Below are positions 58,189 through 63,796 of a stretch of DNA of 64,000 nucleotides, piece after piece. The notes beneath the pieces were generated by a model, which worked only from the letters and a program-made list of their open reading frames with translations, made no database searches and was not told the origin of the DNA. The stretch spans positions 62,001 to 126,000 of the forward strand of contig JAABSW010000003.1 of the NCBI GenBank assembly GCA_011390155.1, written 5' to 3'. A program made the position numbers and the translations under genes. Every line of letters starts with the position of its first letter. The first letter of the stretch is position 1. This DNA is from Clostridiaceae bacterium. Lineage in GTDB: Bacteria > Bacillota > Clostridia > Peptostreptococcales > Tindalliaceae.

Positions 58189-58287
58189 TTAAAAATCTCC
58201 TTTCGGGAATAAAATAATTTAATTCACAGGTTAAATACCCGATCCCGTTCCTGATAAACAATATTTCATCTTGTCGCAAAAAAATTA

Positions 58288-58296
58288 TGGTATAAT
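58288..58296 (+). promoter_or_regulatory. Extended -10 promoter of the csoR-type gene
   Basis: TGGTATAAT, an extended -10 element, 41 bases before the ATG. No good -35 box is present, as is normal for this class. Confidence 0.5.
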
Positions 58297-58336
58297 TACT
58301 ATAAGAATTCATGGAATGCCACAAGGAGCTGATGAA

Positions 58337-58594
58337 ATGGAACAACAGGATCGTGCTGATGTGATTAAAAGACTGAAAACCATACGAGGCCATATCCAGG
58401 GTGTTGAAAAGATGGTTGAAGATGGAAAAAACTGTGACGATGTTATGCAGCAGATTGCAGCCATTAAGTCTTCTGTTGAAAAAGTGGGCTGGATGATTAT
58501 TAGGGATCATGCAGCTGACTGTTTGATGAACGAACCAATGTCAAAGGAAGAGGTCAACAAAACAATTCACCGCATTGCACAATTTCTTAAATAA
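58337..58594 (+). CDS. CsoR/DUF156-family metal- or sulfide-sensing repressor
   Basis: The 85-residue all-helical repressor starts at ATG 58337, eight bases after AAGGAG. The sensing residues Cys-His-Cys are in place: Cys in KNCDDVMQQI, His and Cys in IRDHAADCLM. CsoR, RcnR and persulfide-sensing CstR share this set; the fourth ligand needed to separate them is not decided here. No copper pump, sulfurtransferase or nickel gene is adjacent. The phoP gene starts 26 bases downstream. Confidence 0.9.
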   Translation: MEQQDRADVIKRLKTIRGHIQGVEKMVEDGKNCDDVMQQIAAIKSSVEKVGWMIIRDHAADCLMNEPMSKEEVNKTIHRIAQFLK

Positions 58595-62768: not shown

Positions 62769-63128
62769 ATGCGTGAACAGGCAGATTGTTTTAAAGCACT
62801 GGGTGATGTAACACGCCTTCGTGTATTAATGATGCTGGCAGATGGAGAAAAGTGCGCCTGTGATATTCAGGAGAACTTTGATCTCAAACAACCAACGATC
62901 TCTCACCATATGAAAATTCTGCAACAATCCGAATTGGTCCAGGTGGACAAACGGGGTAAATGGATGTTTTATTCACTTAACATAGATAAATTGGAAGAAA
63001 TTCGATTGTTTCTGGGAGACAACCTGATTAACCTCACCTGTTTTCCTTATAAGCTGGCAAGTCATGACTGTGAAGGTGCCAGAAAAGAAACAGGCAATGT
63101 GTGTTGTTCCACCATTGAAGAACAATAG
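62769..63128 (+). CDS. ArsR/SmtB-family metalloregulator
   Basis: The 119-residue winged-helix repressor starts at ATG 62769 after AGAGGTG. The recognition helix is LKQPTISHHMKILQQSELV; the GEKCACDIQE segment on helix 3 has the paired Cys of arsenite/antimonite-type (alpha3) sensors. The C-terminus adds further Cys (LTCFPY, SHDCEG, VCCST), unusual for the family. No arsenic-efflux gene is adjacent; a selenoprotein glutaredoxin follows about 140 bases on. Confidence 0.9.
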   Translation: MREQADCFKALGDVTRLRVLMMLADGEKCACDIQENFDLKQPTISHHMKILQQSELVQVDKRGKWMFYSLNIDKLEEIRLFLGDNLINLTCFPYKLASHDCEGARKETGNVCCSTIEEQ

Positions 63129-63231: not shown

Positions 63232-63271
63232 TTTTGATGTGACAGTGTTTATATTGAAGGGAGGCAGAATA

Positions 63272-63502
63272 ATGGACAAAAAAGTCGTGGTTTATACCAG
63301 TAATACATGACCCCATTGTGCGACGGCTAAGGATTATTTAGCCCAAAAAGGCATCGAATTTGTTGAAAAAAACGTACAATCCGATGTTTCAGCCCGCAAA
63401 GAATTGATGTCAGCAGGTATCATGGCGGTTCCTGTCATTAAAATTGGGGACGAAATGATTGTTGGTGTGGACAAAGCCAAGATCGATAGTCTTCTGGATT
63501 GA
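63272..63502 (+). CDS. Glutaredoxin-like selenoprotein with in-frame UGA (Sec)
   Basis: The 76-codon gene runs from ATG 63272 (eight bases after GAAGGGAGG) to TGA 63500-63502, with an in-frame TGA at 63308-63310, codon 13. Reading it as selenocysteine gives a full glutaredoxin-like protein: MDKKVVVYTSNT-Sec-PHCATAKDYL, with Sec in the first position of the CPxC redox motif and the TVP-like cis-proline in MAVPVIKIGDE. A hairpin GGCTAA, GGATTAT, TTAGCC (63325-63343) starts 14 bases after the UGA and has G at the start of its loop, as a bacterial SECIS should. Coding similarity is unbroken on both sides, so a stop mutation is unlikely. Confidence 0.88.
63325..63343 (+). promoter_or_regulatory. 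Candidate bacterial SECIS element
   Basis: GGCTAA, loop GGATTAT, TTAGCC inside the coding sequence. The apical loop begins 20 bases after the UGA and starts GG, both within the known bacterial SECIS rules (loop 16-37 bases from UGA, a G in the first two loop positions). Confidence 0.75.
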
Positions 63503-63516
63503 TAGGAAACAATGAT

Positions 63517-63543
63517 AAAAACCTCCCTAGGGAGGTTTTTTCT
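63517..63543 (+). terminator. Terminator after the selenoprotein gene
   Basis: AAAAACCTCCC TAGGGAGGTTTTT: an almost loopless perfect palindrome (63517-63540) with further T. Any loop must open at the centre. Confidence 0.85.
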
Positions 63544-63580: not shown

Positions 63581-63796
63581 ATGAAACTGAAAGATGGGTC
63601 TGCGATGAATATATTTATGTACCAAATTATGAACATGCTTCTGATTATTGCGCTGCTGGGAGCCCCGGTGGCTGTCGCAGTGGTGATATTCAGGCACTTT
63701 AACAAAAAAGATAAGATGATTGAACTGGAAGCACGTTTAACATCACGGATCAACGAGTTGGAAGAAAGAATAGAACAATTGGAAGAGGTACAGTAA
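63581..63796 (+). CDS. Small membrane protein with C-terminal coiled coil
   Basis: The protein has up to 71 residues from ATG 63581, or 63 from ATG 63605. One hydrophobic helix (MLLIIALLGAPVAVAVVIF) is followed by a basic turn (RHFNKKDK) and a heptad-like charged helix (LEARLTSRINELEERIEQLEE). Neither start has a strong ribosome binding site. It precedes trpS by 50 bases. Not recognised. Confidence 0.6.
   Translation: MKLKDGSAMNIFMYQIMNMLLIIALLGAPVAVAVVIFRHFNKKDKMIELEARLTSRINELEERIEQLEEVQ

Follow-up and report, generated by a model that had tools for sequence, protein, structure and literature searches.

A glutaredoxin gene with an in-frame selenocysteine codon beside an ArsR-type regulator in an alkaliphilic clostridium

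The glutaredoxin locus

The stretch of DNA analysed here (the window) comprises 64,000 nucleotides of a contig from a Clostridiaceae bacterium of the family Tindalliaceae, and close to its end lies a short glutaredoxin gene, the features of which are collected in Table 1. Its frame consists of 76 codons plus a stop, opens with the ATG at 63272, 7 nt behind a GGGAGG sequence, and carries a UGA at codon 13, the position of the first catalytic Cys of a CPHC motif. The readthrough translation is MDKKVVVYTSNTUPHCATAKDYLAQKGIEFVEKNVQSDVSARKELMSAGIMAVPVIKIGDEMIVGVDKAKIDSLLD. Glutaredoxin matches span the whole length of this product, both to the Pfam family PF00462 (2.1e-16, 60.3 bits vs. a cutoff of 22.9) and to the YruB family TIGR02196 (1.9e-23; with U read as C, 82.8 bits, just below the curated cutoff of 88.55).

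Table 1. Features of the glutaredoxin locus, in positions of the window
Feature	Position	Strand	Basis
ArsR/SmtB metalloregulator with conserved CxC (EKCACDI)	62769..63128	+	profile matches; ahead of the glutaredoxin gene in 7/7 family genomes
Ribosome binding site GGGAGG	63259..63264	+	sequence; GGAGG kept here in 7 genomes
Gene of a 76-residue Sec-glutaredoxin of YruB/Grx1 type, UPHC with Sec at residue 13	63272..63502	+	frame, profile matches, solved homologue
UGA codon read as selenocysteine	63308..63310	+	TGC or TGT here in orthologues
SECIS hairpin GGCTAAGGATTATTTAGCC; G-initial loop of 5-7 nt on a 6-7 bp stem	63325..63343	+	folding, shuffles, published rules
Palindromic intrinsic terminator 3' of the glutaredoxin gene	63517..63540	+ (- in the scan listing; palindromic)	terminator scan, sequence
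Small protein, hydrophobic N-terminal stretch	63581..63796	+	open reading frame; also downstream of the Natronincola Sec-glutaredoxin
trpS	ATG at about 63847, runs off the window	+	follows the small protein, also in Natronincola

These results bear out the sequence-only reading, which had described a 76-codon frame split at codon 13 by a UGA in the place of the first Cys of CPxC, with a good ribosome binding site, a glutaredoxin pattern on both sides and a terminator shortly after the natural stop. It had also proposed an alignment with Cys-containing homologues, and this places TGC or TGT at the UGA codon. The natural stop is itself a TGA (63500-63502), and an in-frame TAG comes directly after it (63500-63505). 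The region 63272-63502 is a real, intact selenoprotein glutaredoxin gene, corrected here, which standard gene callers would shorten or miss altogether.

Selenocysteine decoding and its alternatives

The hairpin begins 14 nt past the UGA, its loop lies 20-21 nt past the UGA, and the loop opens with GG, as the sequence-only reading had described. Published rules for bacterial SECIS elements call for a loop of 3-9 nt, a stem of 4-16 bp, a G at loop position 1 or 2, a distance of 16-37 nt from the UGA and a minimum free energy of -7.5 kcal/mol or lower (PMC13188914). Stem, loop, loop G and distance of the hairpin lie within these limits, as does the energy of a 43-nt segment (-8.0 kcal/mol), whereas the bare 19-nt hairpin (-6.9) falls short. 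Since the terminator hairpin lacks a G-initial loop, the SECIS would also distinguish the internal UGA from the terminal one.

In our SECIS test, we looked in the 48 nt after the codon for hairpins that keep to the loop-G rule, with synonymous-codon shuffles as the comparison. None of 20 such shuffles of the glutaredoxin gene gave an equally good SECIS-like hairpin. However, a plain dinucleotide shuffle of the single sequence was only mildly significant (z -1.6); the case draws its strength from the comparison between genomes. Of the 37 UGA genes read, a set that includes four copies of a paralogue, 35 have a SECIS-like hairpin, as opposed to 2 of 17 Cys orthologues with one of comparable strength (Mann-Whitney p 6e-7, where the Cys set also takes in six Grx3-type Cys genes). 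The two Cys exceptions (L033 in G073 and L040 in G107) carry TGC, as though Sec had lately given way to Cys in them and the SECIS had stayed behind as a relic. The share of paired cells in the best register was 79% for the UGA genes and 59% for the Cys genes, and several pair types occur in the lower stem. Further, between UGA genes of two genera, eight of nine codons in the SECIS stretch (codons 17-25) are identical, compared with 18 of 50 in codons 26-75. An Rfam scan of the glutaredoxin region returned only sub-threshold chance matches, and a promoter scan upstream of the gene gave nothing useful.

The genome encodes the machinery that such decoding would call for. SelA (608 bits, TIGR00474), SelB (396 bits, TIGR00475) and SelD (372 bits, TIGR00476) all score above cutoff, and tRNA-Sec (SelC) reaches 73.4 bits, where the gathering score is 47. 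The genes for tRNA-Sec, SelB and SelA are clustered, and selD follows at a distance of about 2 kb, so that the absence of selA, selB or selC, which the sequence-only reading had named as the finding that would tell against it, is not what the genome holds. The selD gene is itself interrupted by a UGA (SAGUAAKI; L010:10779-10900, - strand, on G000:C28) and its frame extends back through this codon, and a standard caller would thus place its start too late. In the same genome, an MsrA gene (G000:C44:6479-6895, L172) also contains a UGA (GUFW), and its product has a C-terminal extension. In addition, a second Sec-glutaredoxin paralogue (UPHC) lies on the same contig as the window, about 6.3 kb before its start (G000:C58:55514-55735; L023, L073). 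This paralogue has a hairpin after its UGA and a zinc-ribbon-like C-terminal tail (CPSCGAK...CHQC), and its counterparts in G001, G002 and G005 have a UGA too.

Across the order, 112 of 297 genomes gave a glutaredoxin match at E<=1e-18, at least 37 of them with one in-frame UGA, and wherever the homologous sequences were read the UGA sits at the catalytic codon; that so many homologues share the position of the UGA places it beyond chance. SelA, which is common in the order, was present in all 37 listed genomes with a UGA-interrupted glutaredoxin, compared with 69 of the 75 other glutaredoxin carriers, a difference that is not by itself significant (Fisher p 0.18).

Alternatively, the UGA might be a true stop, either in a pseudogene or through a sequencing error in a Cys glutaredoxin. 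Such a reading could draw on the close relatives: among seven genomes of the family, that of the window included, which represent two genera and in which the relatives' glutaredoxins are 72-97% identical to that of the window, codon 13 is UGA in three and TGC in four, the latter including G003-G005 and the orthologue of Anoxynatronum buryatiense, which is 88% identical. However, the identical UGA recurs in the independent genomes G002 and G006, the hairpin is nearly confined to UGA genes, and the Sec machinery is complete. Moreover, codons 26-75 differ between the genome of the window (G000) and G002 by 13 synonymous changes to one nonsynonymous change, a ratio by which the codons downstream of the UGA are evidently under purifying selection. 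We reject the stop or error reading, which is very improbable in light of the shared UGA and the downstream selection. Equally rejected, and still more improbable, is a genome-wide reassignment of UGA to an ordinary amino acid, since 8 of the 38 open reading frames of at least 220 aa in the window end in TGA, as does the glutaredoxin gene itself. Readthrough of the UGA as selenocysteine, by contrast, appears close to certain from these comparisons.

A tree of 50 glutaredoxin proteins, built from few columns and weakly resolved with many unresolved forks, contains at least five Sec/Cys changes forced by well-supported branches, and parsimony counts 11. From these changes, it is likely that Sec and Cys were exchanged repeatedly. 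Close orthologues that carry Sec or Cys at one catalytic residue, and that have or lack the SECIS accordingly, offer a clean case in which repeated Sec/Cys exchange becomes directly testable. In Caloranaerobacter azorensis (L112, 101-1291), an ArsR-type gene is followed by a UGA-interrupted glutaredoxin and then by a Cys glutaredoxin in tandem.

The ArsR neighbourhood

In each of the seven family genomes, whether the glutaredoxin is of the Sec or the Cys form, an ArsR gene with its CxC kept precedes the glutaredoxin gene on the same strand. The pairing put forward in the sequence-only reading thus stands as an adjacency that is conserved in the family. The sequence-only reading also took the pairing to be possibly undescribed; titles and abstracts searched in the open-access literature included none on a selenoprotein glutaredoxin paired with ArsR, which is weak evidence that it is undescribed. 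From the adjacency, it is possible that ArsR controls the glutaredoxin gene, and the conserved neighbour is a concrete lead on the inducer of the glutaredoxin.

Going further, the Sec-glutaredoxin could be chiefly an arsenic-response protein, repressed by an ArsR that senses As(III) at its CxC, and could either give electrons for arsenate reduction or repair arsenic-induced oxidation; this would add to the selenoprotein reading rather than replace it. Besides the conserved ArsR, the gene order in Natronincola peptidivorans (L089, 1-4100) is consistent with such a role: a CsoR-like gene, ArsR, an ACR3 arsenite exporter, the Sec-glutaredoxin, a small membrane protein and trpS follow one another there, and the window, too, has a CsoR-like gene upstream, at 58271. 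The ArsR of the Natronincola locus is related to that of the window, and the order there suggests an old link between the Sec-glutaredoxin and arsenite efflux. However, ACR3 stands beside a Sec-glutaredoxin in no locus but that of Natronincola, elsewhere the majority of UGA orthologues lack an ArsR neighbour, and the genome of the window has its own arsR-acr3 pair at a separate site; in the window, the interval from arsR to the terminator contains no arsenite exporter or arsenate reductase. The intergenic gap between arsR and the glutaredoxin gene measures 98-183 nt, and an operator search by alignment of the seven short intergenic regions revealed no conserved block beyond the ribosome binding site, nor one upstream of arsR. 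On balance, we consider a chiefly arsenic-related role rather unlikely. Somewhat more doubtful still is the broader proposal that an ArsR-controlled metalloid response has recruited a glutaredoxin, of the Sec or the Cys form, in Natronincola and the Anoxynatronum/Tindallia family. If it were true, an arsenic sensor would govern a selenium-dependent redox protein, and selenium use and arsenic stress would be tied together at one locus.

Outside these groups, some glutaredoxin genes have an ArsR-type gene of a different subtype ahead of them, as in Peptoniphilus/Aedoeadaptatus and Caloranaerobacter. The CsoR/RicR/FrmR-like repressor gene of the window (58271-58594) lies just ahead of a two-component pair of the phosphate type, with which comes a second set of pstB and phoU.

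Predicted function and known relatives

The sequence-only reading had called the gene a hidden selenoprotein and had noted that selenocysteine glutaredoxins occur in some clostridia. Its selenoprotein interpretation holds, and the family itself was already known. The closest solved protein is Grx1 of Clostridium oremlandii (7C10; 7.5e-29, 46 of 75 residues identical). The selenocysteine-containing Grx1 of that organism was reportedly the subject of work by Kim et al. in 2011.

C. oremlandii Grx1 occurs naturally as a selenoprotein (PMC7642778), its Sec at position 13 being known from a U13C construct (PMC7642778, PMC4479559), and it reduces the organism's own Sec-MsrA, a reaction that thioredoxin is unable to carry out (PMC4479559). 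Given this precedent, the window glutaredoxin is, judged by its sequence, a fresh member of an already known and characterised Sec-glutaredoxin family.

We propose that SelB, acting on the SECIS hairpin just past the UGA, would deliver Sec-tRNA-Sec, allowing the ribosome to read through and insert selenocysteine. The product would be a dithiol-type glutaredoxin with selenocysteine as its catalytic first cysteine (U13-P-H-C16). The selenolate of U13 would attack a substrate oxidised to a disulfide, sulfenic acid or selenenic acid, after which C16 would resolve the mixed bond; the scheme also presumes an upstream electron donor. By analogy with C. oremlandii Grx1, the product probably has the Sec-MsrA as one of its clients, and since the genome of the window, too, encodes a UGA-containing MsrA, this pairing is our best guess for the function.

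Among known systems, Grx1 of Clostridium (Alkaliphilus) oremlandii (PDB 7C10, 7C12, 7C13) is the nearest, having Sec at the same residue 13, the same CPHC/UPHC motif and the same length class, and the likeness extends to the Sec-MsrA gene. In contrast to it, the window gene adjoins an ArsR gene, an arrangement kept in the Anoxynatronum/Tindallia family. To the YruB family the protein is a full-length match, but below the cutoff, with Sec replacing Cys. The UXX-star glutaredoxin-like (seleno)proteins (NF041212 and relatives) likewise have Sec at the first active-site position; however, all matches to them are below cutoff (NF041212, 54.2 vs. 66 bits), and the window protein differs in that its resolving Cys is retained (UPHC), with YruB as the better match.
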